Assembly: GCF_002802875.1 (NCBI RefSeq)
Contig: NZ_PEBI01000001.1
Location: forward strand, 521,830-585,829
From: Bifidobacterium primatium
GTDB taxonomy: Bacteria; Actinomycetota; Actinomycetes; Actinomycetales; Bifidobacteriaceae
Length of the DNA: 64,000 nt
Direction: 5' to 3'
This document shows positions 16,487 through 48,030 of this stretch, in pieces; position 1 is the stretch's first letter; each line of letters begins with the position of its first letter. Made by a program: the position numbers and the translations under genes. Below the pieces are notes generated by a model, which saw only the letters and a list, made by a program, of their open reading frames with translations, did no database searches and was not told the DNA's origin.

Positions 16487-16561
16487 GTGTGGCTTCGGTA
16501 CGCTGGAAGATGAAGGCGTACGAAGGTACGTCGATTCTTCCAGCGTGCCGAAGACACTCCG
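16487..16561 (-). repeat. Constant-core covarying hairpin element, araA copy
   Basis: An 18-bp stem (16493-16510 with 16536-16553, one mismatch) encloses GCGTACGAAGGTACGTCGA, which itself folds as CGTAC-GAAG-GTACG. The outer flank matches the family consensus GTGYGG...GACRCTCCRTYA. It begins 5 nt after the araA stop codon on the transcribed strand. There is no T-tract; a separate terminator follows. Confidence 0.85.
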
Positions 16562-16565
16562 TTAT

Positions 16566-18083
16566 TTAGTGACGGTTGTTGAGGCGGTGGTACATCTCGG
16601 ACAGCTCCAGCTCCTTCTCGAACTGGCGCGTGGTGGTGTTCTCGTCGATGACGGCGAGTTCGACGCCGGCGATGCGGGCGAAGTCCTCCCAGGCCTCACG
16701 ACCGACGGAGGTGGTCATGCAGGTGTGGTGGGAGCCGCCGGCGGTAATCCAGCACTGGACGGCGGTCTTCAGGGACGGCTGCGGCTTCCAGACGGCGCGG
16801 GCGCACGGGAGCTCCTTGAGGGAGCCCTGCGGCTCGACGACGTCGACGACGTCCATGAGGAGGCGGAAGCGTTCGCGCTCGTCGGCCATGGAGACGACGA
16901 CGGCATCCTTCTTGGGGGCGCCGGAGAAGACGAGGCGGACGGGGTCGGCCTTGCCGCCGATGCCGAGCGGGTGGATCTCGAGCTTCGGCTTGGCGATGGT
17001 GCCGATGGACGGGGAGACCTCGAGCATGTGGGAGCCCATGTCGAGCTCGTTGCCTTCGGTGAAGTTGTAGGAGTAGTCCTCCATGAGGGAGGCACCACCT
17101 TCGAGGCCGTAGCCCATGACGGCGCCGATGCGGACGAGGACGGCGGTCTTCCAGTCGCCTTCGGCGGAGAAGCCCCAGCCGTACTCGGCGGGGAAGCGCT
17201 GCGGGCCGACGCCGGGGAGCTGCGGGAGGGCGCCGAGGTCTTCGAAGTTGTCGACGCCGGCGGTGCAGCCGTTGGCGCGCATCATGTTGACCATGGCGGC
17301 CTCTTCCTTGGCGGCGATGAAGAGGGAGTCGTACTTGGCGTCGAGGAGGGCCGGGTCGATGTCGTACTTGGCCTTGTAGTCCTCGATGATCTCCTTGACC
17401 TGGTCGTCCTTGACGGCGTCGTAGGCGGCGACGAGCTCGTTGACGGCCCAGGTGTTGATGGAGGCGCCGAAGACGCGCTCGGCTTCGGTCTTGTCGCCTT
17501 CGGTGACGGCGACGTTGCGCATGTTGTCGCCCCAGCGCATGACCTTCATGTTGTTGGAGGCGTCCCAGCCGGCGCAGGCGCGGGCCCAGGTGCCGACCTT
17601 CTCGGCGACTTCGGGGTCGGTGTAGTGGCCGACGACGATCTTGCGCGGGATGCCGAGGCGGGAGACGATGTAGCCGAACTCACGGTCGCCGTGGGCGGCC
17701 TGGTTCAGGTTCATGAAGTCCATGTCGATGGTTTCCCACGGGATTTCCTTGTGGTGCTGGGTGGCCAGCTGCAGGAGCGGCTTGGTGAGCACTTCGAGGC
17801 CGCGGATCCACATCTTGGCCGGGGAGAAGGTGTGGCACCAGGTGATGACGCCGATGACGTTGGGGTTGGCGGAGGCTTCGACCATGAATTCCTTGACGCC
17901 GTCGGAGGACTTCAGGGTGGGCTTGAGGACGATCTTGGCCGGGATCTTGCCGGTCTTGTTCAGGTAGTCGACCATTTCGCCGGAGTGGATGGCGACCTGG
18001 CGAAGGGCTTCCTCACCGTAGAGGTCCTGCGAGCCGACGCCGAACCAGATTTCCTTGCCCTCGAAGGGGTTTTCGAATGCCAT
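16566..18083 (-). CDS. araA: L-arabinose isomerase
   Basis: A 505-residue enzyme converting L-arabinose to L-ribulose in the cytoplasm, full length for AraA. Recognisable segments are FGVGSQDLYGEEAL at the N terminus, VIGVITWCHTFSPAKMWIRG, QHHKEIPWETIDMDFMNLNQ, a metal-site region around GFSAEGDWKTA and MEDYSYNFTEGN, and the C-terminal AGGSHHTCMT. The start at 18083 is preceded by AAGGAG. It is the last gene of araB-araD-araA, separated from araD by about 320 bp holding three hairpin elements. It is followed by a fourth element and the operon terminator. Confidence 0.97.
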   Translation of the reverse strand: MAFENPFEGKEIWFGVGSQDLYGEEALRQVAIHSGEMVDYLNKTGKIPAKIVLKPTLKSSDGVKEFMVEASANPNVIGVITWCHTFSPAKMWIRGLEVLTKPLLQLATQHHKEIPWETIDMDFMNLNQAAHGDREFGYIVSRLGIPRKIVVGHYTDPEVAEKVGTWARACAGWDASNNMKVMRWGDNMRNVAVTEGDKTEAERVFGASINTWAVNELVAAYDAVKDDQVKEIIEDYKAKYDIDPALLDAKYDSLFIAAKEEAAMVNMMRANGCTAGVDNFEDLGALPQLPGVGPQRFPAEYGWGFSAEGDWKTAVLVRIGAVMGYGLEGGASLMEDYSYNFTEGNELDMGSHMLEVSPSIGTIAKPKLEIHPLGIGGKADPVRLVFSGAPKKDAVVVSMADERERFRLLMDVVDVVEPQGSLKELPCARAVWKPQPSLKTAVQCWITAGGSHHTCMTTSVGREAWEDFARIAGVELAVIDENTTTRQFEKELELSEMYHRLNNRH

Positions 18084-18149
18084 AATTGGCTCCTTTTGTG
18101 TTGTGGTTACTTCTTTGTGTAAGTGTTTGAGTTATTGCACGGCCCGACG

Positions 18150-18404
18150 TGTGCGGATTTGGCACGGCGGGAGGCGAAGGCGTACGAGGGTACGTCGAGT
18201 CTCCCGCCCCCGCCGTGCCGGAGACGTTCCGTCAGGTCTGACGCGTGCGGCCGCAAGGCGCGGACAACGAAGGCGTACGAAGGTACGTCGGGTCTCCCGC
18301 AACGCCGCGGATGTTCCGTCGATGCGTGTGTCATCAAGGCGCGGGAGGCGAAGGCGTACGAAGGTACGTCGAGTCTCCCGCAACGCGGATGACACTCCAT
18401 CGAA
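18150..18404 (-). repeat. Three tandem constant-core hairpin elements between araD and araA
   Basis: Copies at about 18150-18235, 18245-18320 and 18324-18400 share GCGTACGARGGTACGTCG. Their stems differ but are complementary: in copy 1, 18161-18173 pairs with 18201-18219; in copy 3, GCGGGAG at 18341 pairs with CTCCCGC at 18375, plus an outer GTGTCATC pair. Copy 2 has a poorly matched stem. The array begins 5 nt after the araD stop. Apparent reading frames on both strands are artefacts of the repeats. Confidence 0.85.
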
Positions 18405-19097
18405 TCAGTGCTGGCCGTAGACGTTCTGGTAGCGGTCGTTGAGCTTGTCGATGTCGGCCTGGTCGATCTCGATGATGTCGCCGAGCTGCCTGGCGGCCCA
18501 CATCGTGTGCGCGACCTCCTCGGTCATGGCGGCCGCCTTGACGGCGGCCTCCGCGTCCCTGCCGATGGTGAACGGGCCGTGGTTCTGCATGAGCACGGCC
18601 GGCGACTTCGGGTACTTGGCGAGGGTCTCGACGACGCCCTTGCCGATGGCCTCGGAGCCGATGAGGCGGAACGGGCCGACCGGCACGGGGCCGCCGAACT
18701 CGTCGCCCATCATCGTCAGGCCGCACGGGATGTCCTGGCCCGTGGCCGCCCACGCGGTCGCGTACGTGGAGTGCGTGTGCACCACGCCGTACACGTCGGG
18801 CATGTGGCGGTAGATGTACGCGTGCGAGGCGGTGTCCGAGCTGGGGGCCTCGGAGCCGTCGACCACGTTGCCCTCGAGGTCGGTGACGACCATGGAGTTC
18901 GGGGTGAGGTTCTCGTAGCGCACGCCGGACGGCTTGATGACCATCAGGTCGGCGGTGTGCAGGCGCTGGGACACGTTGCCGGCCGTCCACACGACCAGGT
19001 TCCACTTGATGAGCTGCTGGTGGAGGTTGGAGACCACCTCGCGCACCTGCTTGACCTCGGCACGCACTTCGGGACCATAATCAGCCAGAGTTGCCAT
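18405..19097 (-). CDS. araD: L-ribulose-5-phosphate 4-epimerase
   Basis: A 230-residue class II aldolase-like epimerase converting L-ribulose-5-phosphate to D-xylulose-5-phosphate, which would feed the bifid shunt. Motifs include TAGNVSQR, VIKPSGVRYENLT, the zinc-binding GVVHTHSTYATAWA and MQNHGPFTIGRDAEAAV. The start at 19097 has AAAGG upstream. It lies 44 bp downstream of araB on the same strand, so the two are co-transcribed. Confidence 0.96.
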   Translation of the reverse strand: MATLADYGPEVRAEVKQVREVVSNLHQQLIKWNLVVWTAGNVSQRLHTADLMVIKPSGVRYENLTPNSMVVTDLEGNVVDGSEAPSSDTASHAYIYRHMPDVYGVVHTHSTYATAWAATGQDIPCGLTMMGDEFGGPVPVGPFRLIGSEAIGKGVVETLAKYPKSPAVLMQNHGPFTIGRDAEAAVKAAAMTEEVAHTMWAARQLGDIIEIDQADIDKLNDRYQNVYGQH

Positions 19098-19141
19098 GTT
19101 CGGCTACCTTTCTTCGTTGTTTGTTGACGTTGTGGGAAAAA

Positions 19142-20773
19142 TCACTTGCTTTCGAGGTCGATGTTGCGCACGGCGCTCTTCTCGATCGCCAGGCCGGCCT
19201 GGAAGCGGGCGAAGAAGTCCTCGAAGCCTTCGACGTCCTTGGGGTCGGGCGTCTCGGTGGTGGACTGGGCGTCCTTGAAGACGCGCTGGTCGAGGTACTC
19301 GTCGAGCGGCCACGGGGTGTGCCACAGGTAGTCGGCGAGCACGGCCATGCCCCAGGCGCCGCCTTCGGCCGCGGTGGTCATCACCTTGATGGGGGTGTCG
19401 AACGCGGCGGCGAGGATCTTCTGCGCGACCTTCGGGGTGGTGAAGATGCCGCCGTGGCCCACGAGGGAGTCCACCTTGACCTCTTCGTCCTTGGTCATGA
19501 CGTCCATGCCGATCTTGACGGGGCTGAACGCTGAGAACAGCTGGGCGCGCATGAAGTTGGCGAGGTTCATGTTGGCTTCGGGGCTGCGGGCGAAGAGCGG
19601 GCGGCCCTCCTCGAGGCCGGCGAGGAATTCGCCGGAGCGGAACGGATAGTTGAGCAGGCCTCCGGCGTTGGCGTCGGCCTGGTCGCTGATGGCGAGGCGG
19701 AACAGGGTGCCGTAGAGGGCGCCGGTGTTCACGGGCTGGTCGATGGCCTTGGCGAATTCGCCGAAGAGGCCGACCCAGGCGTTGAGGTCGGAGGTGAAGT
19801 TGTTGGCGTGGCTCATGCCCGCGAGGTCGCCGGCCGGGGTGGTGACGAGGTCGACTTCGGGGTGCAGGCGGGCGAGCTTCTTCTCGAGCACGACCATGGC
19901 GAAGATGGAGGTTCCGGCGGAGACGTTGCCGGTACGCACGCGCACGGAGTTGGTGGCGACCATGCCGGTGCCGGCGTCGCCTTCCGGCGGAGCGAGCACG
20001 ATGCCGGGCTGGAGCTTGCCGGAGGGATCGAGCAGCTTGGCGCCTTCGGCGGTCAGCTCGCCGGCGGGGGTGCCGGCGACGAGCGGTTCGGGCAGCAGGT
20101 CCTCGATGTTCCACGGCTGGGCGGCGACTTCGGGCAGGGCGGAGAACTTGGCGAGCAGTTCCTTCTCCCAGGTGTGGGTGGTGGGGTCGATGGGGAACAT
20201 GCCGGAGGCGTCGCCCACGCCGAGCACCTTCTTGCCGGTGAGCTTCCAGTGCACGTAGCCGGCGAGGGTGGTGAAGTAGGCGACCTTGCCGACGTGCTCC
20301 TCCTTGTTGAGCACGGCCTGGTAGAGGTGCGCGATGCTCCAGCGTTCGGGGATGTTGTACTGGAACAGGTCGGAGAGCTTGAGGTGGGCCTCGTGGGTGT
20401 TGGTGTTCTGCCAGGTGCGGAACGGCACGAGCAGTTCGCCGTCCTTGTCGAAGGCGAGGTAGCCGTGCATCATGGCGGAGAAGCCGATGTGGCCGATGCG
20501 GGTGAGTTCCACGCCGTAGGCCTGATTGACGTCCCATGCCATGGCGCCGTAGGCGCTCTGCAGGCCCTTCCAGATCTCCTCGACGGAGTAGCTCCACAGT
20601 CCGTCCTCGAGGTGGCTGGCCCACTGGTAGTCGCCGGAGGCGATGGTGTTGTAGTTGTCGTCGATCAGCACGGCCTTGATTCGGGTGGAACCGAACTCAA
20701 TGCCCAGCGAGGTCTTGCCCGCACGGATCTTTTCGACGATTCCCGAGATGTCCATATCGGAGGCGTCGCTCAT
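19142..20773 (-). CDS. araB: L-ribulokinase (FGGY family)
   Basis: A 543-residue FGGY carbohydrate kinase phosphorylating L-ribulose. The N-terminal phosphate-binding motif is SLGIEFGSTRIKAVLID. Conserved blocks IGFSAMMHGYLAFD, GVGDASGMFPID and GTGMVATNSVRVRTGNVSAGTS follow, with VGHGGIFTTPKVAQ in the C-terminal domain. I chose the start at 20773 (MSDASDMD) for AAGGAG 7 nt upstream. First gene of araB-araD-araA. A LacI-type operator lies about 100 bp upstream. The kinase specificity is inferred from the araD and araA neighbours. Confidence 0.93.
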   Translation of the reverse strand: MSDASDMDISGIVEKIRAGKTSLGIEFGSTRIKAVLIDDNYNTIASGDYQWASHLEDGLWSYSVEEIWKGLQSAYGAMAWDVNQAYGVELTRIGHIGFSAMMHGYLAFDKDGELLVPFRTWQNTNTHEAHLKLSDLFQYNIPERWSIAHLYQAVLNKEEHVGKVAYFTTLAGYVHWKLTGKKVLGVGDASGMFPIDPTTHTWEKELLAKFSALPEVAAQPWNIEDLLPEPLVAGTPAGELTAEGAKLLDPSGKLQPGIVLAPPEGDAGTGMVATNSVRVRTGNVSAGTSIFAMVVLEKKLARLHPEVDLVTTPAGDLAGMSHANNFTSDLNAWVGLFGEFAKAIDQPVNTGALYGTLFRLAISDQADANAGGLLNYPFRSGEFLAGLEEGRPLFARSPEANMNLANFMRAQLFSAFSPVKIGMDVMTKDEEVKVDSLVGHGGIFTTPKVAQKILAAAFDTPIKVMTTAAEGGAWGMAVLADYLWHTPWPLDEYLDQRVFKDAQSTTETPDPKDVEGFEDFFARFQAGLAIEKSAVRNIDLESK

Positions 20774-20874
20774 GTGTCTACTCCTTGTTGTTCCGGTCAG
20801 TATGTGATTACCAACGTCGTTGTTGCGCATCAGAACCTGCGGACCTTCTGGAAGTGACCATCGAACCCGTGGTT

Positions 20875-20886
20875 GTGAACGCTCAC
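20875..20886. promoter_or_regulatory. LacI-type operator before araB
   Basis: GTGAACGCTCAC, one base from the perfect palindrome at 12055, lies about 100 bp upstream of the araB start. On the minus strand it sits just downstream of a possible promoter (TTGTCG, 16 bp, CATAGT), a repressing position. Confidence 0.78.
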
Positions 20887-21086
20887 ATTCTAGTTACTAT
20901 GGTACAACCCGCCACGCCGACAACGCAACGTCTGACGTCAATTTATTTGATTTGTTATGAAACCCCTCCCGTCCCCGTCGGCGGAGGAGCCGATGCATCG
21001 CATCGGACTCCATCCTACCGCCGGCGGGACGACCCGAGGGGAGCCACGCGCCGCGGAATGCCATCGACGGCGCCACCGGCGCCCGG
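20887..21086. other. Region between araB promoter and LacI gene
   Basis: About 200 bp without a gene. A short inverted repeat CCGATGCATCGCATCGG near 20991 could help end the LacI-gene transcript; it lacks a strong T-tract. Nothing else identifiable. Confidence 0.3.
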
Positions 21087-22190
21087 TCAGCGGGTCGGTG
21101 CGGCCGTCGACTTGCGCACGATGAGCGGGGCGACGATCGTGGCGACGCCGTGATGCCGCGGCAGATCGAGCTTCGGCGCCGCAGTCGTCTCACCCTTCGT
21201 TCCGAGGAGTGAGAACAGCGTCCTCATGGCGGCCACGCCCAGCGCCGAGAAATCGGGACGGATGGTGGTCAGCGGCGGAATGGCGTTGTCCACGCCGGGC
21301 ATGTCGTCGAATCCGACGAGGCTGACATCCTTCGGCACGTAGAATCCATGCTCGTACAGCGAGCGCCGGATGCCCGTGGCCTGCAGGTCATTGGCGGCCA
21401 CGATGGCGGTGGGCAGCTGCGTCTTCGGGTCGTCGAGCCCGGCGAGATAGCGTTCGAAAAGATCATATGCCGACTGCGCGGACCAGTCGCCGACCTCAAG
21501 CGTGCGCGATTCGATGCCGGCGGCGGCGCTTTCCTTCTCCCATGCGAGGCGACGGGTCGCGGCGTCGCGCCAGTCCTGCGGACCGGCGAAATAGATCGCC
21601 CGGCGATGCCCCTGTTCGGCGAGATGGTCGACGATGGAGCGGATGGCCGACCACTGGTCAACGCCGAGGCACACGGTGGTCGGATCCTTGGCGATGATCT
21701 CCTCGATGTCGACGTCGGACGACCCGTGCGACGACGTGAGGATCACGCGCGGCACCTTCAGTCGGGCGGAGAGCGCGGCCTCGACCATCGGTTCGGTCGG
21801 GGCGACGAACACGAACGCCTCCACGCCCTGGTCGAGGCAGGCGTTGGCCACCTCCTCGAAGGCCTTCTGGGTGTATTCGTGGTCGTTCATGATGGAGATG
21901 GACACGTACAGGCCGTGCTTGCGGGCCATGGCCTCGATGGACGAGATGGTGGAGAGCGGGCCGTGGTAGCTCATGCCTCCGGCGATCAGCGCGATGGTGC
22001 GCGTGCGCTGCGTGGCGAGCGCGCGGGCGGCGCCGGACGGACGGTAGCCGAGCTCGTCGATGGTCGCCTGCACCTTGGCCCGCGTGGTCGGCGACACGTT
22101 CGGGGAATGATTGATCACGCGCGACACGGTCTGGTGGGAGACCCCTGCCGCACGGGCAACCTCGAAGATGGACACGCGCTTGCTCGACAT
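21087..22190 (-). CDS. araQ: LacI-family transcriptional regulator (probable AraQ)
   Basis: A 367-residue LacI/GalR regulator. The N-terminal helix-turn-helix reads VSIFEVARAAGVSHQTVSRV, with the hinge helix segment GYRPSGAARALA, then a periplasmic-binding-type sensor domain (about 60-340). It lies upstream of and co-directional with araBDA, an arrangement matching the AraQ locus of bifidobacteria, from which the symbol is taken. Operators of one type lie before this gene, araB and the arabinofuranosidase, suggesting autoregulation and control of arabinose use. AraQ is described as a wider carbon-metabolism regulator. A pathway-specific paralogue cannot be excluded. Confidence 0.85.
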   Translation of the reverse strand: MSSKRVSIFEVARAAGVSHQTVSRVINHSPNVSPTTRAKVQATIDELGYRPSGAARALATQRTRTIALIAGGMSYHGPLSTISSIEAMARKHGLYVSISIMNDHEYTQKAFEEVANACLDQGVEAFVFVAPTEPMVEAALSARLKVPRVILTSSHGSSDVDIEEIIAKDPTTVCLGVDQWSAIRSIVDHLAEQGHRRAIYFAGPQDWRDAATRRLAWEKESAAAGIESRTLEVGDWSAQSAYDLFERYLAGLDDPKTQLPTAIVAANDLQATGIRRSLYEHGFYVPKDVSLVGFDDMPGVDNAIPPLTTIRPDFSALGVAAMRTLFSLLGTKGETTAAPKLDLPRHHGVATIVAPLIVRKSTAAPTR

Positions 22191-22278
22191 ACCTCAAAAA
22201 CCTCCGGCCTCGTCGTTCGTATCTCGCCGTGTCTCGTCGTCGTCCGATCGCCTTCGGAAAATCGTTTGACATATCTCC

Positions 22279-22290
22279 GTTAGCGCTCAC
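22279..22290. promoter_or_regulatory. LacI-type operator before the LacI regulator gene
   Basis: GTTAGCGCTCAC, one half-site perfect and one substitution from the 12055 palindrome, about 90 bp upstream of the regulator start. It may also affect the divergent AEC transporter gene. Confidence 0.6.
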
Positions 22291-22469
22291 GGCTTCTTGT
22301 GACCAATGGTAACGGCAATTCCCTACGACACGGCGCTGCAACCCGAATTCCGTCCTCGAATTTCACACTCCTCCCCCTATGCCCCCAAACCGCGATGCGA
22401 GCGTCGGGACGCGGTTCATGATACGGGGCCTGTGGCAGTATTGACGCGTACCAAACGGAGGGGAGCATC

Positions 22470-23411
22470 ATGCCAGGCCTGTTGAGCGCAATGCAGGGGT
22501 TCTGTGTAATCGGCATCGTCATCGCGGTGGGATACGTCGCCGCGCGCATGCATATCGGAGGGCCGCAGGGCCAGATGGTGCTCAACCGCTTCAGCTTCTT
22601 CGTCTCGAGTCCATGCCTCATGTTCGCGATCCTCTCGAAGGAGCCGATCTTCGAGATCTTCCACTCGTCGATCGTCGTGGCGTTCTTCTCGGCGGCGCTC
22701 GTCGGCCTGCTGTTCGTCATCCTCAACCGTCTGTTCTTCCATATGGGCGCGGCCGACACGACGATCGGCGCACTCAATTCGCTGTATCTCAATTCGAACA
22801 ACATCGGCCTGCCGATCGCCACGTACATCCTCGGCAATCCGGCGCTGGTCGCGCCCATCCTCGTGATGCAGCAGGCCATCTTCACGCCCGTGGGCCTCAC
22901 CGTGCTCGACGTGACCACCAAGGGCAAGGTATCGCTCAAGGAGATCGCCAGGCAGCCGCTGCACCAGCCGCTGCTCATCGGCTCGCTGCTGGGCATCATC
23001 CTCTCGGCCGTGAACGCGAAGACCGGCTGGTTCCTGCCGAACTTCCTCTTCGACCCCATCAAGATGATCGGCGACTCCGCCGTGCCGATGATCCTCATGG
23101 CGTTCGGCATGTCGCTGCACGGCACGCGGCCGATGCAGCAGAAGTCGTCACGTCCGGCGATCCTCACCGTCGCGATTCTGAAGAACATCGTGATGCCGGT
23201 CATCGCGTTCCTGCTCGCCTACTTCGTGATGGGCTTCCGCGGCGCGACGCTGTACGCATGCGTGGTGCTCGCCGCGCTGCCGACCGGCCAGAACGTGTAC
23301 AACTACGCGGCGCGATACAACGTCGGACTCACGTTCGCCCGCGACGGCATCCTGCTGTCCACGATGACGTCGCCGGTGTTTATTGCGGTCATCGCAGCAC
23401 TGCTGAGCTGA
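22470..23411 (+). CDS. AEC-family transporter (auxin efflux carrier fold)
   Basis: A 313-residue membrane protein with about ten hydrophobic helices and the AEC layout: an N-terminal half with LNRFSFFVSSPCLMF, LNSNNIGLPIATYILG in the middle, and LPTGQNVYNYAARYN near the C terminus, the conserved re-entrant-type segment. Family members export or exchange organic acids and amino acids; the substrate here is unknown. The start at 22470 follows GGAGGGGAG. Its stop codon directly abuts the stop codon of the convergent acyltransferase gene. Confidence 0.85.
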   Translation: MPGLLSAMQGFCVIGIVIAVGYVAARMHIGGPQGQMVLNRFSFFVSSPCLMFAILSKEPIFEIFHSSIVVAFFSAALVGLLFVILNRLFFHMGAADTTIGALNSLYLNSNNIGLPIATYILGNPALVAPILVMQQAIFTPVGLTVLDVTTKGKVSLKEIARQPLHQPLLIGSLLGIILSAVNAKTGWFLPNFLFDPIKMIGDSAVPMILMAFGMSLHGTRPMQQKSSRPAILTVAILKNIVMPVIAFLLAYFVMGFRGATLYACVVLAALPTGQNVYNYAARYNVGLTFARDGILLSTMTSPVFIAVIAALLS

Positions 23412-25652: not shown

Positions 25653-25781
25653 GGGTACAGCGTACCCCCTCCCCCACCGCCGTGGGTTACGGAATCTTGA
25701 ATTATCGCGGCCAAATCAACTCGTCGGGATCACGGTCATCGCCGTGAGACCACCGTCGCCCGAGGAAACGTGAACGGAAAA

Positions 25782-38277: not shown

Positions 38278-38319
38278 GAACACCTGTCCGCGGGACCTCC
38301 CGCGAACATGCACCCCATT

Positions 38320-38347
38320 AGTTTACACATACATCGGACGAAAACAA
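38320..38347 (-). promoter_or_regulatory. Probable promoter of tRNA-Arg
   Basis: On the minus strand TTGTTT and TAAACT are separated by 16 bp, placing transcription start about 35 nt before the tRNA. Confidence 0.5.
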
Positions 38348-38510
38348 GCGATCCGACAGATCAAAAATCAAAAACGATCCCGATACGGGTTTTGCGGCTT
38401 TGTTCGCCGCATAAGGGACGTCCTCATGCACCGCGGCATCCCAAAACAGGGAAATCACGCCGGGGATTTTCGGCGTTCCACGGCAAAGCCACAAAACTCG
38501 CGATTATGCC

Positions 38511-38541
38511 TCCGGATTCGCGACCCAGCCCCGAATCCGGA
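38511..38541 (-). terminator. Hairpin after the ABC transporter operon
   Basis: A 10-bp stem TCCGGATTCG / CGAATCCGGA lies 27 nt past the ABC ATPase stop. No T-tract follows directly, so function is uncertain. Confidence 0.4.
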
Positions 38542-38567
38542 ATCTGCAGACCGTTACGCAGCCCTTT

Positions 38568-39383: not shown

Positions 39384-40900
39384 CGCTTGTTCATCCTCCG
39401 ATCGACGATATTGGCCAGCCAGGTCAGCAGGGTGATGGCCACGAAGTAGATGACGCCGACCATGAGCAGCGTCTCGGTGACACGGAAGTTGGCCGCGTAG
39501 ATCTGCTGGGCCTGGTACAGCAGTTCGCCGAAGCCGATGGCGAGCAGCAGCGAGGAGTCCTTGAGCATGATGACCAGCTGGTTGATGATCGCCGGCGTGC
39601 CGATCTTCACGGCCTGCGGCAGGATCACCTTGCGCATGGCCTGGTTGTAGCTCAGGCCGAGCGAACGCGCGCCTTCCATCTGGCCGTTGTTCACGGACTC
39701 GATGGCGCCGCGCACGATCTCCACAAGATACGCACCGGCGTTGAGCGACAGCGTGAGCGCGCCGGCCACCCAGATGTTGATGCTGTGGCCGATGATCTGC
39801 GGGATGCCGAAGTAGAAGAAGAACGCCCACACCAGGATCGGCGTGCCGCGGAACACGGCCACGTACACACGGGCGACCCAGGACAGCGGCTTGTTCGGCG
39901 AGACGCGGACGAGGCCGAGCACGATGCCGAGCACAAGCGCGATGACGAACGAGATGGCCGTGATGAGCATCGTGTTCTTCAGACCGGTCATAAGCGCGGG
40001 GAACGCGTCCTTCGCCAGGTCGATGAAGCTCTTCTTCGCGGTCGAGTCGGCGGTGGCCGGCTTCACGCTGGAGTCCTCGCCGAGGTACTTCGCGAGGATC
40101 TTGTCGTATTCGCCGGACTTCTTGAGGTTGGCGAGGCCGGCGTTGAACGCCTTGAGCAGGTCGGCGTTCTGCCCCTTGTTCACCGCGAAGCCGTAGTCGC
40201 CGCCGGGGACCTTCGGCGTGACGGTCTTGAGTCCGTTGCCCTGCTGGATGCCGTAGGCGAGCACCGGATAGTCGTCGACGACGGCGTCCGCGTTGCCGGA
40301 CTTCACCATTTCGTACATCGTCGCCGACTGGTCGACCGACTTGACCGTGTAGCCGTATTTGGAGGCGTTCTTCTTGGCGAACATCTCGCCTTCTGCGCCG
40401 GTCTTCGCCACAACGGTCTTGCCCTTGAGGTCCTCGTAGCCCTTGATGGCGTCGTTGTTCTTGGCGATGGCCATCTGCACGCCCGACTGGAAGTACGAGT
40501 CGGAGAAGTCATAGATGGCCTTGCGCTCGTCGGTGATGGTCATGCCGGCGATCACGCCGTCGGCCTGGCCGGACGACATCGCCTGCAGTGCGGCGTTGAA
40601 TCCAAGGGACTGAATCTGCACGTTGAATCCCTGGTCCTTGGCGATGGCGTGCAGCAGGTCCATGTCGATGCCGACCATCTGGCCGCTGGAGTCGCGGAAT
40701 TCGAACGGTGCGAACGTGGTGTCGGTGGCGACCTTGAACGTCTTGCCCTGCACTTCGGAGACCTGTGCGGCCTGCGCCGAGGAGACGCCGACGGTGCCGA
40801 GGCCGGCCACGCACAGCACGAGGGCCAGCAGCATGCCGAATGCGCGCCGCCACTGTGTGGCGCGCCGCATAACGGCAGCATTGAACTTCTCAATATGCAT
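39380..40900 (-). CDS. Amino-acid ABC transporter: substrate-binding protein fused to permease
   Basis: A 506-residue fusion. A signal/anchor sequence (residues about 20-45) precedes a family-3 solute-binding domain (about 52-275; motifs [16 protein letters not shown] and [20 protein letters not shown]). A HisM/GlnP-type permease domain (about 290-506) follows, with the EAA loop [20 protein letters not shown]. Fusions of this type occur in Firmicutes and Actinobacteria for glutamine, glutamate or cystine uptake; the ligand is not determined here. The start at 40900 has AAGGAG upstream. Confidence 0.9.
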
Positions 40901-41254
40901 ACATTGAGCTCCTTTACAAAACGAGGTAATCCTACTCTCCCGTAGTTTTCGGTTCTGTAACCAATCCTTCGGCGCCGTTCGTCCGCCGCGTCATACGTGC
41001 CGTGTGAGCCGTGGTTCCACATGCATGCGGCGTATCGGGCCGCATGGCCTTGTGAGACGTCGCGCCTGTTTTCGAGGATCCTCGGGAGGCCGTCCGCCGA
41101 CCGTCATGCGGTCATGATGCGGACGTCACGAAAAGACAAGGATTAAGAAGACTGATTCTACACAAGCCCGTGGAATCCGAACGGGGGCATTCCGAGGCCA
41201 CAGTCCTTGCAAAAATTTTTCGCAAATATTACACGGTTTTCGTAAGATGGTGTC
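40901..41254. promoter_or_regulatory. Intergenic region between the ABC transporter and the CYTH gene
   Basis: About 350 bp holding divergent promoters. TAAGAT at 41243-41248 lies 6 nt before the CYTH start with no ribosome site, a probable -10 box of a leaderless messenger. No RNA gene or operator is evident. Confidence 0.4.
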
Positions 41255-41872
41255 ATGTCCGACGATTTTCAGTATGAGCGCCGTTTTTTCTGCCGTGAAT
41301 TCCCCGTGGAATACGACGACGGGGACGCCCCCACGCTGATTGTGCAAAGCTATTTCGTGCATCAGGACGGATTCGCGCTGCGCATTCGTCTGCGATCACG
41401 CGACATCCGCGTGCCGATGGGGCCGCAGACCGATGGCCTGACCACGCTGATGCAGTATCGCGAGCATTTTTCGGAGGCGTTCGTCACCGTGCAGGGGAAC
41501 GCGGTCGGGGGAACCCGCTATGAGGCGGAACGCACGATAGACGCGAACATCGCCATTGAGCTCGTGCTTCGCGGGGGAACGCCCATCATCAAGAACCGCT
41601 ACAGCGTCTGGCTCGGCGAGGATGGCTGGGAGATCGACGTGTTCGGCGCGAACAACTCGGGATTGATTCTGGCGCAGGTGGAACGCTCCAGCCCGGTGAC
41701 GAATCTGACGATTCCCTCGTTCTGCACCGCCGAGGTGACGGAGGACCAGCGTTTCTACAACGACGGGCTGGCGTCGAAGCCGTTCATCACCTGGCGGGAC
41801 GACTACTACGAAGAGCTGGAGCGCTACGGCGCGCATTTCTCCCAGCTCTTCGGTCGCAATCGTATGGAGTAG
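41255..41872 (+). CDS. CYTH-domain protein (triphosphate tunnel metalloenzyme-like)
   Basis: A 205-residue protein with the CYTH pattern: an N-terminal basic/acidic strand, IRLRSRD, alternating charged strands (WEIDVFGANNSGLILAQVE) and the C-terminal EVTEDQRFYNDGLASKPF block. Such tunnels bind tripolyphosphate, thiamine triphosphate or nucleotides. The signature ExExK is degenerate: residues 6-10 read QYERR, so the first Glu is Gln and the Lys is Arg. Activity may be altered or absent. Convergent with the YbbN-like gene, 2 nt apart. Confidence 0.72.
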   Translation: MSDDFQYERRFFCREFPVEYDDGDAPTLIVQSYFVHQDGFALRIRLRSRDIRVPMGPQTDGLTTLMQYREHFSEAFVTVQGNAVGGTRYEAERTIDANIAIELVLRGGTPIIKNRYSVWLGEDGWEIDVFGANNSGLILAQVERSSPVTNLTIPSFCTAEVTEDQRFYNDGLASKPFITWRDDYYEELERYGAHFSQLFGRNRME

Positions 41873-41874
41873 CC

Positions 41875-42843
41875 TCAGTACATCAGCGTGGCGAGACGAC
41901 GACGGGCACGCGCCACGCGGGCGTCGTCGGCGGCGGGGATGGCGAAGTATTCGAGCAGACGCTTGCGCACCGGTTCGACGTCGGCCTTGTGCCCGGCGAG
42001 GAAGTCGAGCAGGCGGCTGAACGCGTCCTCGATCTGACCGCCGATCATGTCGATGTCGGCGACGGCAAGCTGCGCCTCCACGTCGTCGGGGTTGTCGGCC
42101 GCGGCGGCGCGCACGGTACGCACATCGGCTTCGGCGGAGCGGGCGAGCAGCAGGGCCTTGGCGTGTTCGCGGGCGGCGCGGGCGTCGTTCGGGTCGGCTT
42201 CCATGAGTTTCGCGTATTCGACGGCAGCGCCGGCGTAGTCGCCTTCCTGGGCGAGCTGGTGGGCCTTCTGGTGTTCGGGCGGAATCTGTTCCTCGGCGCT
42301 CTTGCCGGCTGCGGCGTCGGCGCCCTCGGATGCGGCGCCGGCCTCCTGGTACGGCGCGGTGCCGGTGACGCCGGCCTGCTGCGCCATCTGGATGATCTGC
42401 GGAATCAGCGTGCCGGTGATCTGCTCCATCTCGGCGTCGGAGGGCACGCCCTGCATGATGGGCATCGGACGGCCGCCGACAAGTCCGTAGATGGCGGGGG
42501 CTCCCTGAGCCTGCAGCGCCTGGGCGATGGTCGGGCTCTTGGCGATGTCGATTCGAGACAGCTGGATCTTGCCTTCGAGCTTGTTGACGGCGTCGCCGAG
42601 CTTGCGAGCGACGTCGAAGCATCGGTCGTCGTTCGTCACCCACAGCAGCAGGAGGATGGGGAACGTGGCCGAGGTCTGCACCATGGCCTGGAACGTGCTT
42701 TCGTCGGTGTCGATGACGTAGCCGCCGGCGGCCGGCGCGCCTCCGGCCTCGCCGGCCTCGGCGTCGACCTTATGCTTCAACGCTTCGAGGTCGACCGCGC
42801 CCGCCAATGAAAGACCGGGATTGAACTTCGGCTGCTCCGCCAT
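41875..42843 (-). CDS. Thioredoxin-domain/TPR co-chaperone (YbbN/CnoX-like)
   Basis: A 322-residue protein with an N-terminal thioredoxin-fold domain (about 45-155: TFQAMVQTSATFPILLLLWVTNDDRC) lacking a CxxC motif, then a TPR half (AHQLAQEGDYAGAAVEYAKLM, AVADIDMIGGQIEDAFSRLL). This matches actinobacterial tetratricopeptide thioredoxins that hold unfolded proteins for chaperones. The start at 42843 has AAGGAG upstream. It probably acts as a redox-inactive holdase, which is an inference from the missing cysteines. Confidence 0.82.
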   Translation of the reverse strand: MAEQPKFNPGLSLAGAVDLEALKHKVDAEAGEAGGAPAAGGYVIDTDESTFQAMVQTSATFPILLLLWVTNDDRCFDVARKLGDAVNKLEGKIQLSRIDIAKSPTIAQALQAQGAPAIYGLVGGRPMPIMQGVPSDAEMEQITGTLIPQIIQMAQQAGVTGTAPYQEAGAASEGADAAAGKSAEEQIPPEHQKAHQLAQEGDYAGAAVEYAKLMEADPNDARAAREHAKALLLARSAEADVRTVRAAAADNPDDVEAQLAVADIDMIGGQIEDAFSRLLDFLAGHKADVEPVRKRLLEYFAIPAADDARVARARRRLATLMY

Positions 42844-42979
42844 GATGATGCTCCTTACGCGATTAATCGCACGATGGTCGTCTTGCTACTGATTAGTATT
42901 ACCAACGTTTGCGACAGCATGCCCCGTTTTCGCGCGTTTTTTCGGACGAATGGCGAAATATCCCCATATCCGACGATTC

Positions 42980-43345
42980 ATGCACGCCGAAGACGCTCCA
43001 TCCATGCGGTACGTACGGCCTGCGTGGAACGCAAGGTGAAGACGTACCGCCTCCCAATGATATGTGCGGCTTCGGGCCGGAGGAAGGCGAAGACGTACGA
43101 CCTTTCCCCTCAATGATGCGTGCGGATTTCGTCGTGCGGAAGGCGAAGGCGTACGACTTGTACGTCGAGTCTTCCGCACGGCGAAAGACGCTCCGTCATG
43201 AAGTAATGCGTGTGTCCTGCGTGGAACGCAAGGTGAAGACGTACGACCTTCCCCTCTCAATGATGTGTGCGGATTTCGTCGTGCGGAAGGCGAAGGCGTA
43301 CGACTTGTACGTCGAGTCTTCCGCACGGCGAAAGACGCTCCATCA
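42980..43345 (-). repeat. Composite array of constant-core hairpin elements
   Basis: Two complete copies are nearly identical over 88 nt (about 43112-43198 and 43260-43345), with stems 43126-43142/43171-43187 and 43273-43289/43318-43334 and the core variant GCGTACGACTTGTACGTCGA. Around them lie left-half copies at about 43006, 43057 and 43205 and a right end at 42981-43005. The array starts within 2 nt of the stop codon of the lipoprotein gene. Confidence 0.85.
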
Positions 43346-44350
43346 TTGGGCTTCGACCTTGATGGGCTGGCGCTCGGCGCCGACAGCCTGTATCTTCGCG
43401 TCCGTTCCCTGCTTGGGCACGTACAGCGCGACGACGTTCACGTAGGTGACCTTCATGGTGCTGGTGGCCTTGCCCTTGCCGAAGAGGGCCTTTTCGGCAT
43501 CGGATGCGGGGAGGGATTCGCGACCTTCGCCGGCGGCGCGGACCCATTCGGAGTTGATTTGCGCGACGACGAGGTCGCCGTTGTCGCCGGCGGCCCTCAT
43601 GATGCGGATCTGGTCGGGTTCGACGGTGAATTTCTGGGATTGGGTGCCTTTGTTGGCGGCGATTCCCTTCTGCACGGTGGCGGTGAGCTCGGTGAGGTCG
43701 TCACGCAGCTGGTCGTCGCCGAATTCCTTGGCGTACTGGCTTTTGGCGCCGTTCTGGAGGACGTCGGCGTAGTGGGCGACGGCGTCTTCCGGGGTGGCGA
43801 CGAGGCCGGTGTCCTTGGCAGTGCCCATGGAGGAGCCGAGCTTGGGGACCTCGAAGGCGGGCAGCTGGGCGCCCTGGAAGAGTCGTGCGACGGCCCAGAG
43901 CTTGTAGTTGCTGCGGGCGTCCTCCTGGTTGAGGACGAGGAGTCGCTGCGACTGCTGGTCGTCGGTGGTGGTGGTGATGGTGAAGACGGAGCGCGGCCAG
44001 CTGGAGTCGGTGGGGATCACGGTCTGGCTGATCTTCGAGGGGATGGTACTGCGCTTGTCGAGCGAGTTGGTGGCCTTGGCGATGGTGAGCTGGCTGGTGC
44101 GTACGGCGAGCTCGGGGCCTTCGACGCGTTCGGAGAGTCCGCTGGCGTCCTTGGCCTGATCGGCCTTGGTGAGGGTGTCGAGCACCGAGGTGCGGATCTT
44201 GCGTTCCTTGGCTTCGGTCATGACGGGCGCGGACGCGGTGGCGGTCGGTGTGGTCACCTGCGGCACGCGTTCCTCGCATGCGGCGACCATCGGCAGCATG
44301 GCCACGATGAGGGATGCCGTGGCGACGCGGCGCAGTTTCGAGGCGTTCAT
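43343..44350 (-). CDS. Hypothetical lipoprotein
   Basis: A 335-residue protein with a lipoprotein signal peptide ending in the lipobox MVAAC (Cys near residue 25). The remainder is an extracytoplasmic domain of unknown family, predominantly strand and helix with no catalytic motif I recognise. The start at 44350 overlaps the stop of the upstream membrane-protein gene by one base (TGATG), so the two are translationally coupled and probably work together at the envelope. Followed immediately by the hairpin array. Confidence 0.7.
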   Translation of the reverse strand: MNASKLRRVATASLIVAMLPMVAACEERVPQVTTPTATASAPVMTEAKERKIRTSVLDTLTKADQAKDASGLSERVEGPELAVRTSQLTIAKATNSLDKRSTIPSKISQTVIPTDSSWPRSVFTITTTTDDQQSQRLLVLNQEDARSNYKLWAVARLFQGAQLPAFEVPKLGSSMGTAKDTGLVATPEDAVAHYADVLQNGAKSQYAKEFGDDQLRDDLTELTATVQKGIAANKGTQSQKFTVEPDQIRIMRAAGDNGDLVVAQINSEWVRAAGEGRESLPASDAEKALFGKGKATSTMKVTYVNVVALYVPKQGTDAKIQAVGAERQPIKVEAQ

Positions 44351-46701
44351 CACTTGCCCTCCTTGGTTGTCTCGTCGGTTTCGTCGGTGTTCTCGTCGGC
44401 GCTGCCATCGGCTGCGGAATCGTTCGCTTCGCTCGATTCCTCGCCGGCGTTCGCGGCGGCCTGGTTGGCGGCGTTCTCCGCGGCCAATCGGGCGAAGTAG
44501 TCCTGCAGTTCGTCGGCGGTGATCTGCGATGTCGAGGTTCCGACCTCGGTGTCATCGCCGCTGCCGCCCGCGTCGGCACCGTTCGGTTCGACGGTATCGA
44601 CGCCGTGGGCGTCGGTCTCCCCCGGCGTGAATTCGATGCTCGGGCCGCTTGCGGCGTCGGAGCCCGGCGTCTGCTGTTCGAGCATGTTGACGGCGGTGAC
44701 GTCGAGGATGGCCGGACCGGAGGCGGACTCGCCGACCGCCGCCGTTGCGTTTTCGGTGGCTTCGACAGCCGCTTCGGCCTCGCGGTTCCTGTGTCGGCGA
44801 GAACGGCGATGGGAGTGACGGCGTTCACCTCGGCGTCGCGACGACGATTCGGAACGGCCGTGCATCCAGTGCGGACGCTCGCCGGGTTCCGGTTCCGGCT
44901 CGGGTTCGGCCGGGGACTCGACCTGCTTCTTGCGGCGACGATGGTCTTCGATGGAGAAGATGGTGGCGACGAGCACGGCCATGATGACGAGCAGACCGCC
45001 CACGAAGTAGAACGGCGTGGCGAAATCAGGCACCTGCGCACGCGTCCAGCTCATGGTGACGGTGGCGTCGGCTGCGGCGTTCGCGTCGGTCGAGCCGGCA
45101 TTGGCGTCGATGAGCACGACGCGATCGCTGCCGGCGCCCTTCCACTTGAGCGTGGCGGAGCCCTGTCCGCACTGCACGGACTCCCACATGTCGGAGTCCT
45201 GGAATGCGACGCCCTGGCTATCGTTCTGACCGTTGGACGCGGATGCGGAGGACGACGAGCCGCTTCCCGAATCGTCGGCGTCGATCTTCGTCTGCTGCGT
45301 GGAGAACTTCTGCCAGGTCTCCAATCCGCTGATTCGCGTGTACTGCTGGCCGGAGAGCCAACCGGTCGCGTCGCGCGGCGCGGCGACGGCGACGCAGACC
45401 TGTGCGTCGGATGCGCTCTTGACGGTGATGTCGACGGTGTTGTCGGCGAGCGCCAGCACGCCGGGGTCGCTGACAACGTACTGGGTGGTCGTCTGCGCCG
45501 AGGCGGCGACGTGCGGGTTCGGCTTCCAGACGGTCATGTTGAGGGCGCCGAACACGAATGATGCGACGGCCAGCACGGCGAGGATCGGCGTGACGATGCC
45601 GCGCAGGATCTTCTTGCGCTTGGCGTGACGCTGCTTGGCGATCTGCGCGAGTTCCTCGTCGCTCAGCTTCGGCGCGGGCTGCTCGCCGGCGGCGGGCGCA
45701 TTCGCGTCACCGGATTCGCTGCCGTCGGCGACGCCGGTCGCAGGCTCAACACCGGTCACCGGGGCGATCGTCGTGGTGGCGAGGTCGGCGACGTCCGACG
45801 GCTTGAACACCGTCGTCGCTTCGGCGTCGGTGTTCGTTTCGGATGCGGTGTTGGATTCGGGCGCGACGTTCGGCTCGGCAGCGGCCGGGCTCTCGCCGGC
45901 CGACTGCGTTTCGTCCGACGGCTGCGCATCGGCCGATGCTTCGGCGTCGCGTCCGTGGCGCCTCCTGCGACGACCGCCGAACGCGAAGGCGAACAGTCCC
46001 CTGTGCTGTTCGACGTCGTCGCGGCTGACGGTGTCGTCGTCGAGGTCCTTGTCGGATTCGTCGGATTTCGCAGCGGCCGCATCGGCGTTCGCGGCCGGGG
46101 TCGGGCCACCGTCATGAGGATGCTCGCCGCCCGACGTCGCGGGAACGGCGAAGACGCTGGAATCGTAGACGGACGGGAAATCGGCGGTCGCCGAGAATTC
46201 CGGCGACACGGTCGGCACGTCGGCTTGGGCAGCATCGGCATGTGCAACGGCGTCATGCGAGTCATCGTCATGCGTTGTCGCCGTCCGCTTGTCATCGGTC
46301 TTCGATCCGTCGGCGGAATCGATGCCGGAAGCGGCGGCGGAGGCGGCCCCGGCATCACGCGTGCCGGCGGGACGGTTCGTCCGCTCGCCGCGGACGCCGG
46401 CCAGATCGAACAGGCTCAGCTCGCCCGTGGAACGGACCTTGTCGTCGGATTCCCCCGAATCGTCCGGCGAGGCCGCGCCGAGCACGATATCGTCCAGCGA
46501 CGGCGGACGATACAGTTTGTCGAACGGCGAATTTCCAACGCTTTCGGGTATGCCGACGCCATCGGCGGAGGCGTCCGTCGAGAAAGAAGAATGCTGTGAG
46601 GATGATGCTGCGGCCTGCTTCGCGTCCTGTTCGCGGGCGGCCGTCGAGTTCCTGTCGTCATCCTGATGCTGCAGGTTCATGTCACTCATATTGTCTGCCA
46701 T
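44350..46701 (-). CDS. Large membrane protein with disordered cytoplasmic region, function unknown
   Basis: A 783-residue protein. Residues 1 to about 350 are a low-complexity Asp/Ala/Ser/Glu-rich region. A hydrophobic helix follows (GIVTPILAVLAVASFVFGAL), then an extracellular domain of about 200 residues, a second helix (FYFVGGLLVIMAVLVATIF), and a charged low-complexity C-terminal tail. Both tails would be cytoplasmic. It is coupled to the downstream lipoprotein gene and divergent from the FKBP gene with 75 bp between. The start at 46701 lacks a ribosome site; an internal ATG five codons on is also possible. Confidence 0.65.
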   Translation of the reverse strand: MADNMSDMNLQHQDDDRNSTAAREQDAKQAAASSSQHSSFSTDASADGVGIPESVGNSPFDKLYRPPSLDDIVLGAASPDDSGESDDKVRSTGELSLFDLAGVRGERTNRPAGTRDAGAASAAASGIDSADGSKTDDKRTATTHDDDSHDAVAHADAAQADVPTVSPEFSATADFPSVYDSSVFAVPATSGGEHPHDGGPTPAANADAAAAKSDESDKDLDDDTVSRDDVEQHRGLFAFAFGGRRRRRHGRDAEASADAQPSDETQSAGESPAAAEPNVAPESNTASETNTDAEATTVFKPSDVADLATTTIAPVTGVEPATGVADGSESGDANAPAAGEQPAPKLSDEELAQIAKQRHAKRKKILRGIVTPILAVLAVASFVFGALNMTVWKPNPHVAASAQTTTQYVVSDPGVLALADNTVDITVKSASDAQVCVAVAAPRDATGWLSGQQYTRISGLETWQKFSTQQTKIDADDSGSGSSSSASASNGQNDSQGVAFQDSDMWESVQCGQGSATLKWKGAGSDRVVLIDANAGSTDANAAADATVTMSWTRAQVPDFATPFYFVGGLLVIMAVLVATIFSIEDHRRRKKQVESPAEPEPEPEPGERPHWMHGRSESSSRRRGERRHSHRRSRRHRNREAEAAVEATENATAAVGESASGPAILDVTAVNMLEQQTPGSDAASGPSIEFTPGETDAHGVDTVEPNGADAGGSGDDTEVGTSTSQITADELQDYFARLAAENAANQAAANAGEESSEANDSAADGSADENTDETDETTKEGK

Positions 46702-46776
46702 TCTACAATCCCCTATGCACCTCGATTCCGCCCGAGGCCTCGGAACGGTCAGGAAATACCGTTAGAGTAGTGGTTT

Positions 46777-47763
46777 ATGCGCGATTACTTCTCAATCATT
46801 CGTAGCCACTCCCGTCGTATTCTGGCAGTGGCCTGTGCCGCGGCGATGACCGTTTCGCTGGCCGCCTGCGCGGACGGCTCGGAAAGCAAGGATTCGTCCT
46901 CGTCGTCGTCCACCTCGAAGACCGTTTCCGGTCTGACCAAGATGACCGGCATCACCGCCACCGGCGAGCTCGGCAAGAAGCCGAAGGTCACGTTCAAGAC
47001 CCCGTTCAGCGTGAAGAACAACTCCTATCAGATTCTGCAGGAGGGCAACGGCGAGGCCGCGACCGACGGCGACCGCCTGTGCACGCAGCAGATCATCCTC
47101 GACGCGAAGAGCGGCGAGGAGGTCGCCAGCACGTGGTCGGACGATGCTCCCGAGTGCGGCATCCTCATCGGCAAGAACTCCATCGACGAGGCGTACTACA
47201 ACCTGTTCAAGGGTCTGAAGGTCAACACCACGCTGGCGATTGGCGTGAACAACTCCTCGTCGTCGAGCTCGTCGACGTCGTCCACGCTGGAGCAGTACAT
47301 CAACGTGATGACCATCGTCTCGAAGTCGAAGTCGCTCACCCGTGCCGAGGGCGACAAGGTGACGAACATCCCGTCGAACCTGCCGAAGGTCACGCTCGAC
47401 AAGAACGGCAAGCCGTCGCTTGATCTCAACGGCTACAAGCCGGGCGACAAGCTCGTGGTGCAGACGCTTATCAAGGGCAAGGGCGCGAAGGTCAAGGAGT
47501 CGAACACCGTGAGCGCGAACTACACGGGCTGGCTGGCCAGCAACGGCAAGCAGTTCGATTCGTCGTGGGATCGCGGTTCGGCCTCCGACTTCGCGTTGAA
47601 CGCCGTGGTCAAGGGCTGGACGCAGGGTCTGACCGGGCAGACGGTCGGCTCGCAGGTGCTGCTCATCATCCCGCCGAGCCTCGGCTATGGTTCGGAGGAG
47701 CAGAACGGCATTCCGGCGAATTCCACGCTGATCTTCGTGGTCGACATCCTCGCCGCGTACTAA
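46777..47763 (+). CDS. FKBP-type peptidyl-prolyl isomerase lipoprotein
   Basis: A 328-residue lipoprotein: signal peptide with lipobox SLAAC (Cys near residue 30), a Ser-rich spacer, a poorly conserved middle region (about 60-215) and a C-terminal FKBP domain (about 225-328; VSANYTGWLASNGKQFDSSW and LLIIPPSLGYG). It likely assists folding of secreted proteins outside the membrane. No ribosome site; TAGAGT at 46763-46768 lies 8 nt before the ATG, suggesting leaderless translation. A strong terminator follows. Confidence 0.9.
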   Translation: MRDYFSIIRSHSRRILAVACAAAMTVSLAACADGSESKDSSSSSSTSKTVSGLTKMTGITATGELGKKPKVTFKTPFSVKNNSYQILQEGNGEAATDGDRLCTQQIILDAKSGEEVASTWSDDAPECGILIGKNSIDEAYYNLFKGLKVNTTLAIGVNNSSSSSSSTSSTLEQYINVMTIVSKSKSLTRAEGDKVTNIPSNLPKVTLDKNGKPSLDLNGYKPGDKLVVQTLIKGKGAKVKESNTVSANYTGWLASNGKQFDSSWDRGSASDFALNAVVKGWTQGLTGQTVGSQVLLIIPPSLGYGSEEQNGIPANSTLIFVVDILAAY

Positions 47764-47783
47764 ACGCCGGGTCCGCTATAACG

Positions 47784-47822
47784 AAAGAAGCTCCCTCGCG
47801 ACACTCGTGAGGGAGCTTCTTT
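47784..47822 (+). terminator. Terminator of the FKBP gene
   Basis: Perfect 14-bp stem AAAGAAGCTCCCTC / GAGGGAGCTTCTTT with an 11-nt loop, 20 nt after the stop. T-rich ends on both strands could allow bidirectional function. Confidence 0.9.
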
Positions 47823-47867
47823 ATGCCGTAAATGCCCATGGCGACCGTCTCACCCAATCGTCGAATA

Positions 47868-48030
47868 ATGCGTGCGGCATTGGTCGAGTGGGGAACGAAG
47901 GCGCTGAGCCGTCAAGCGGACGGTCCAGTGGACCGTCCGTAGGCGATGCGAGCGCGATTTATCGAGCGCGAGGACGCATAGTTCAAATACGTCGAGTTCA
48001 CCAGTCGGCCAATGACGCTCCATTATTCGG
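47868..48030 (-). repeat. Constant-core hairpin element with a twin hairpin nested in its loop
   Basis: Outer flanks GTGCGG and GACGCTCCATTA, the 14-bp CATTGG.CGA.TGG stem and half-cores GAAGGCG (47897) and TACGTCGAG (47988) belong to the constant-core family. About 84 nt in between hold 11-bp arms CGGACGGTCCA / TGGACCGTCCG (47917-47939) and GCGC-GATTTATCGA-GCGC (47952-47969), the same module as at argS. It begins about 13 nt after the nucS stop. Confidence 0.82.

Follow-up and report, generated by a model that had tools for sequence, protein, structure and literature searches.

What are the hairpins that recur directly behind stop codons in a 64,000-nucleotide stretch of the Bifidobacterium primatium genome (GCF_002802875.1, contig NZ_PEBI01000001.1, positions 521,830 to 585,829; hereafter the window)? 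An initial annotation, made from the letters of the window alone, had placed such hairpins behind araA, araD, the lipoprotein gene at 43343 and nucS, always in the orientation of the gene, and had offered two explanations: that selection acts on RNA structure, or that some insertion process generates palindromes. The element has a constant apex, arms that differ between loci yet remain complementary, a structure that is better preserved antisense to the upstream gene, a position tied to gene ends, and a dispersed distribution that reaches other phyla. It has the look of a dispersed DNA element of an undescribed kind, working as a folded single strand. On balance, the copies are probably members of a dispersed, non-autonomous DNA hairpin module, which would have moved as a folded single strand and obtained its arms by fold-back copying.

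Anatomy and position of the hairpins

Seven copies lie in the window, one of which is weak; they are given here with the genes upstream of them (R1 is a model described below).

16471..16574, minus strand: araA element (model R1, 90.7 bits); the araA stop codon (16566-16568) lies within the outer arm
18310..18412, minus strand: araD element 1 (model R1, 91.1 bits); outer arm TCGATG/CATCGA after the stop codon at 18405-18407
18229..18331, minus strand: tandem element 2 of the araD-araA gap (whole-genome list, G000:C1:540058-540160); core at 18273-18291
18143..18236, minus strand: tandem element 3 of the araD-araA gap (model R1, 53.7 bits); inner stem longer
43251..43355, minus strand: lipoprotein-gene element (model R1, 76.1 bits); stop codon within the outer arm
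43104..43208, minus strand: element 2 of the lipoprotein cluster (model R1, 72.8 bits); 97% identity over 94 nt
47880..48028, minus strand: nucS element, divergent, with a further hairpin nested within; nucS stop codon at 48036-48038
16566..18083, minus strand: araA, L-arabinose isomerase, upstream of the araA element
18405..19097, minus strand: araD-like L-ribulose-5-phosphate 4-epimerase gene, upstream of the araD elements
43343..44353, minus strand: lipoprotein-like gene, upstream of its element; weak SCO2278-family match, below cut-off
48036..48743, minus strand: nucS, upstream of its element; NucS domains

At up to three mismatches the core GCGTACGAAGGTACGTCGA occurs four times in the window, against 0.03 expected from shuffles. 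The gene-oriented hairpins annotated behind the four genes are confirmed, and there are more of them than annotated. Tandem runs are formed by three elements behind araD and by two behind the lipoprotein gene, together with degenerate pieces at ~42985-43100. The copy at 18229-18331, which overlaps its neighbour, comes from the whole-genome list; the R1 list for the window lacks it. The nucS copy is weak (R1 match at 47946-48023, 21.2 bits, E 0.03) and bears an extra hairpin, GGACGGTCCACTGGACCGTCC...TTGACGGCTCAGCG, at 47880-47945; similar inserts lie within the araD elements L265 and L287. The same genome has a second araD (G000:C2:452593-453479) with an identical protein, the same first element and a tandem copy.

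The consensus in gene orientation reads TRAYGGAGYGTC-nnCnGCGTTG-stem-TCGACGTAYnnnnRTACGYCTTC-stem'-CGCCTTG-nnGnCACACGCRTYA, and the inner module, from GGAG to ACGC, spans ~75 nt in most copies. On the strand antisense to the upstream gene the apical hairpin is [stem]-GAA-GGCGTAY-NNNN-RTACGTC-GA-[stem]; this apex, GGCGTAY/RTACGTC over a GAA/GA internal loop, was present in 43 of 44 representatives. The window loci fold into long nested hairpins, usually with the stop codon within the outer arm. The outer stems of the initial annotation are complementary as described, but pairing runs on past its 7-18 bp, through the TRAY/RTYA flanks and usually through the stop codon. Outside the inner module the bifidobacterial arms are unique to each locus and yet complementary. 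In a set of 134 distinct bifidobacterial copies, drawn from the own genome, from family genomes and from named Bifidobacterium loci (araD over-represented by design), the median arm score was 12 vs 3 for swapped arms, and a score of at least 10 was reached by 80 of the 134 copies vs 2% of 2000 swaps. Inner stems recur as a few modules, of the GGAAGAC/GTCTTCC and CTCCTCGG/CCTCGGTG types, and at orthologous sites sharing an outer arm they differ as if swapped whole (e.g. L248 vs L249).

The 2.70-Mb genome contains 40 matches to the core pattern at up to three mismatches, the final few of which look unrelated, and none to the reversed pattern. We aligned 39 copies (alignment A1, which omits two partial copies, one false match, the divergent nucS copy and copies missed by the core pattern) and scored them on a stated structure of 39 pairs. 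Pairing cells made up 85.8% (65.4% when shuffled, 25-45% when slid), cells changed on both sides numbered 347 (123 shuffled), and the covariation score was 0.544 (0.188 shuffled, at most 0.136 slid), in line with the claim that the stems differ and still pair. Model R1, built from A1, gave 46 matches in the own genome at E ≤0.1. Rfam scans returned only tRNAs in the window and no match to the element there or in 18 other loci, and a permissive scan of 18130-18420 gave a single, chance-level miRNA match.

Bifidobacterial copies follow stop codons directly and share the orientation of the gene. Of the 27 non-tandem copies in the own genome, 26 start no more than 30 nt from a stop codon; of random window positions, 553 of 4000 (14%) pass the same loose stop criterion. 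The 36 distinct copies of this genome comprise 26 with the stop of a long open reading frame (ORF) within 30 nt, nine downstream tandem members and one that is neither. A stop lies within 30 nt of 104 of the 134 bifidobacterial copies, and the arm extends into it in 81 of these 104. The initial annotation had named covariation and the distance to stop codons as checks on its proposal; both are strongly supported. Facing copies occur between convergent frames at L028 (ORFs of 215 and 71 codons), the only facing pair with a reading frame of at least 60 codons on both sides.

Twenty upstream proteins were scanned, and they include glutamine synthetase, an antiterminator-like protein, EPSP synthase, NusG, ribonucleotide reductase, class II and class I tRNA synthetases, lactate/malate dehydrogenase, GMP synthase, uracil phosphoribosyltransferase and aconitase; none of the twenty matches a transposase, and the L011 protein has no Pfam match. 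The link to gene ends extends beyond the bifidobacteria: among 95 non-bifidobacterial occurrences (23 too close to a contig end, five within an ORF call), the upstream gene lay on the same strand in 52 cases and on the opposite strand in 13 (p 1e-6), with no significant strand bias of the downstream gene (25 same, 39 opposite, p 0.10). The distance from stop to core was 140-180 nt in 23 of the 52 and at most 62 nt in 14, the larger distance being mainly that of a bigger branched form in Clostridia.

Strand bias and history at the araD site

Gene-end position and covariation by themselves would suit a cis-acting RNA structure of the 3' untranslated region (UTR), inherited vertically and kept by compensatory mutation, which would protect mRNA ends or slow ribosomes at the stop; such effects have been reported for repetitive extragenic palindromes (REPs) at most 15 nt from stop codons (PMC12306157, available parts). 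The orientation of the copies, their covariation at orthologous araD sites and the ordinary metabolic and housekeeping genes upstream agree with this, and in the window copies the sense strand folds too. The antisense structure, however, is the better kept. Helix mismatches in gene orientation were more often A.C than G.T, in outer arms (69:31) and inner stems (46:24) alike, across all bifidobacterial copies (111:53) and at other named loci (130:41). Because an A.C in gene orientation is a G.T on the other strand, this excess indicates that the structure is kept on the antisense strand.

Folding gave the same polarity. The antisense fold was the more stable one with 45-nt flanks: 126/134 among bifidobacterial copies, 88/88 among others, and 15/15 in each of the genomes G196 and G190; with 70-nt flanks the counts were 85/87, 13/13 and 15/15. 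Controls, which were 100-nt stretches downstream of other stops whose folds fell below -30 kcal/mol, lacked the bias and favoured antisense in 126/300 and 105/229. When the core was swapped for a neutral loop, bifidobacterial copies still favoured antisense (100:33). The bias argues against an element of the sense mRNA and in favour of a DNA module that works through its folded bottom strand, and it makes the question of which nucleic acid folds directly testable. The strand printed in the initial annotation (GAAGGCGTAC...GTACGTCGA) is the better-folding one and is antisense to the gene.

The araD site records presence and absence of the element beside one gene. We found araD in 141 of 189 family genomes and examined 69 araD ends, 68 of which aligned at the C-terminus. 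By a scripted core test, 38 of the 68 sites carry the element; by eye, the remaining 30 comprise four with a variant-core element (L272, L277, L287, L289), three that are remnant-like (L299, L303, L311) and 23 without any element, several of which run directly into the araA leader. Filled L276 and empty L291 have both flanks in common, and L277 and L286 agree. Besides the element and its inverted arm, the L276 insertion contains a short loop and a directly repeated gene end. Empty orthologous sites that lack a palindrome, together with local arms that include the stop codon, favour an insertion.

Arms at this site turn over fast and in step, as two comparisons suggest: the inner module of L278 is identical to that of the window copy, while two spacer bases are changed on both arms and 6/64 upstream coding bases differ; between L258 and L260 the differences are one compensated arm pair, a single inner base and 1/64 coding bases. 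Over 27 distinct araD arm pairs and six spacer positions, 139 cells were Watson-Crick, three G.T, four A.C and 16 other, some of the last being rows where automatic placement slipped. Wobble intermediates are thus scarce (7/162 spacer cells), which, with the antisense bias, the patchy distribution and the near-identical copies, tells against the 3' UTR reading; we regard it as unlikely. Of the two explanations first offered, the covariation and gene-end position behind them held up, insertion gained from the local arms and the empty araD sites, and selection on a sense RNA lost ground to the antisense bias. For students of palindromes, the site offers a test case for how they arise and stay perfect, with arms that change in matched pairs at one orthologous position.

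Dispersal across bacteria and candidate enzymes

R1 copies occur in 73 of the 189 family genomes, in 4 of 16 genera. Eight of nine genomes of the own genus have at least 21 matches each; the ninth, G155, has one, and is also the sole own-genus genome with a Y1 transposase match. In 295 further genomes of the phylum, a single one-mismatch core match was found in six genomes, vs a reversed-control match in three. A core scan of 84,980 species genomes returned at least 116 stretches, 24 of them bifidobacterial, where about four are expected by chance (arithmetic assuming equal base composition). Loci L097-L176 have titles, and L177-L212 were sorted into bifidobacterial or other by sequence reading. 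Among the matches listed (L097-L176) are Bifidobacterium, many metagenome-assembled genomes of Clostridia and Oscillospiraceae, Synergistaceae, Phycisphaerae, Vicinamibacteraceae, Helicobacteraceae, Nitrospirota, Verrucomicrobia, Kiritimatiellae, Bacteriovoracaceae and single cases of others.

Conservation of the core across phyla is there by construction, because the core was the scan pattern; the independent evidence lies in copy number, palindromic flanks, position and strand bias. Flanks of the cross-phylum cores are lineage-specific and mostly palindromic. Among the 88 non-bifidobacterial cores with sufficient flank, 87 form a 7-bp apical stem in the best antisense fold (the apex being part of the search pattern) and only two fold more weakly than -25 kcal/mol. 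L170 and some others fall within an ORF call and may be chance. Twenty-six carrier genomes, picked for having a match, contain 1 to 26 matches each at up to two mismatches, vs 0 to 2 for the reversed control; G192, G209, G210 and G213 have one match only, which may be chance. Phages were considered as carriers and rejected: viral contigs gave five core matches, and the four of these loci that were long enough read inside ORFs. A hairpin tip that unrelated phyla share, in most cases in several copies and linked to gene ends, but that is hardly seen in its own phylum outside the family, points to some system of dispersal for which we found no name.

Could each host's ordinary cut-and-paste transposases have moved the copies as miniature inverted-repeat transposable elements (MITEs), the shared apex coming from an old ancestor? 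Genome G196, with 22 exact cores, comes closest to this picture. Its units are near-identical (183 bp in the one measured) and clean, with ends CTAGCCCGCAAATT/AATTTGCGGGCTAG and CTAG at both; the flanks beyond CTAG differ, and 9 of 14 units supply, with their own TAG, the stop of the upstream reading frame. Units of 93 and 95 bp without a core (e.g. L411, L416) carry the same ends; considered as empty sites, they were read instead as deletions of the inner palindrome. In G190, most units are followed by a terminator-like hairpin, the 5' half of which resembles the unit's 5' arm. Like MITEs, the elements are non-autonomous and palindromic, with near-identical copies in some genomes such as G196. 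Unlike them, as far as the available parts of PMC2229807 describe MITEs, bifidobacterial copies have no fixed terminal inverted repeats (present in G196), and their arms are unique and match the end of the host gene. Classical MITEs give no reason for an invariant apex or a strand bias, and an autonomous partner was not found among the G196 ends read. We give this explanation a small chance.

Enzyme profiles were searched in 48 genomes. Y1_Tnp (PF01797) matched in 14 of them and in one of the 16 high-copy family genomes (G029), leaving 15 of the 16 without a match; the reverse transcriptase profile RVT_1 (PF00078) matched in 13 of the 48 and in none of the 16, which rejects a retroelement enzyme. 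The integron integrase profile TIGR02249 matched over cut-off in none of the 48, and this enzyme was rejected as well; weak matches occur in 47 of the 48 and also in each of the 14 control genomes. After clustering of 805 proteins near cores (L097-L247), we recognised by eye no shared transposase-like neighbour among the 25 clusters listed. REP-like sequences moved by a Y1 (RAYT/IS200-type) transposase would also be interspersed palindromes behind genes, at times in tandem, but with the profile so rare in high-copy genomes this is very unlikely.

Two further features of the window are recorded here. A 77-nt palindromic repeat with 23-nt arms (7346-7422 and 12342-12418, 99% identity) flanks a large ORF at 7457-11980. 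An 843-amino-acid protein with streptococcal pilin isopeptide linkage domains is encoded at 13602-16133, as the same-strand upstream neighbour of the araA region.

Proposed mechanism and relation to known systems

A DNA module that works through its folded bottom strand fits the antisense bias, the empty sites, the local arms and the patchy phylogeny. We suggest that some enzyme, which may be novel or universal, would copy or insert the module as this folded single strand, and that the outer 3' arm would arise when the folded end is extended by copying adjacent host sequence. Fold-back copying of this kind would explain why the arms are local, why they include the stop codon, and why they change in matched pairs with few intermediates. 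Effects on mRNA ends or translation termination, if any, would be secondary.

Several observations weigh against the folded-strand module. G196 reverses the mismatch trend (A.C 1 vs G.T 14, among near-identical copies) and G190 is neutral (11 vs 9). The outer arms are alike in all copies within G196, and likewise within G190, so locus-specific arms are a bifidobacterial finding. In G190 a long-ORF stop lies within 40 nt of just 6 of 15 units, vs 170 of 1080 random positions (short flanks). The direct copy of the gene end, which araD had suggested as a general target duplication, is not general: a repeat of at least 8 nt is present in 13 of 104 copies (0.8% of controls), and nine of the 13 are at araD. 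Vertical inheritance under structural selection would also give conserved elements at orthologous araD sites. Finally, neither the Y1_Tnp, RVT_1 and integron integrase profiles nor the neighbour-protein clusters revealed a mobilising enzyme.

How does the element compare with what has been described? We found no description of it in searches of open-access papers, and the initial annotation knew of none; two of the four core strings are printed in 13 papers, none with a title on bacterial repeats. REPs and bacterial interspersed mosaic elements (BIMEs), as treated in the available parts of PMC3733652 and PMC12306157, include the GTAG- and CGTC-tagged superfamilies and form 20-40 bp hairpins tagged at one end. 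Both they and the present elements are small interspersed extragenic palindromes of several phyla, some near stops and some clustered, and CGTC repeats likewise lack a dedicated transposase. The present elements differ in being longer, in an apical core common across phyla, in a single orientation to the stop codon and, in bifidobacteria, in locus-specific complementary arms; those parts of the two texts contain zero mentions of bifidobacteria or clostridia. Set by eye beside the GTAG/CGTC tags, the bifidobacterial consensus reads TRAYGGAG...ACGCRTYA.

Stable prokaryotic stem-loops have been described within ~50 bp behind stop codons and read as transcribed, many of them terminator-like (PMC1590033, available parts, in which 'bifidobacter' does not occur). 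The present hairpins resemble them in stability and in lying close behind stops, but here the antisense strand bears the structure. As intrinsic terminators or terminator parts they would fit the A/T-rich outer arms of a few copies (L001, L010, L021) and the terminator-like outer arms of Clostridial units, and to that extent the annotated statement that they are not ordinary terminators needs qualification; it holds for the window copies, which by eye have no T tract. With three copies within the araD-araA gap, a separate terminator, already noted in the annotation, behind araA at about 16410-16440 and the better fold on the antisense strand, this reading is hardly credible. The elements sit in bifidobacterial metabolic operons, where they could be mistaken for terminators or regulatory RNAs.

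Integron attC sites carry conserved base boxes. The present element has a conserved apex in their place and, as far as the araD sites show, lies outside any moving gene cassette, being present or absent beside the same gene; membership fails because no integron integrase passed the cut-off in the 48 genomes, and attC sites or their relics are the most improbable of the explanations weighed. The likeness is nonetheless close: attC sites lie behind the stop codon, fold as the bottom strand and keep their pairing while the sequence varies (in part PMC6393395), as do the present elements, directly behind the stop codon and with variable but complementary arms. By analogy, the shared polarity and position speak for a similar working principle, not for membership. 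More tentatively, and with doubt, we propose that the elements may form a further class of mobile module moving as a folded single strand, beside integron cassettes and IS200/IS605-type elements, in which the bottom-strand GAA/GA apex would be the putative substrate of a widely exchanged or universal enzyme (e.g. a Xer recombinase) and the module would be delivered behind stops, its arms fold-back-copied from the gene end, every insertion then carrying a palindrome matched to its target.

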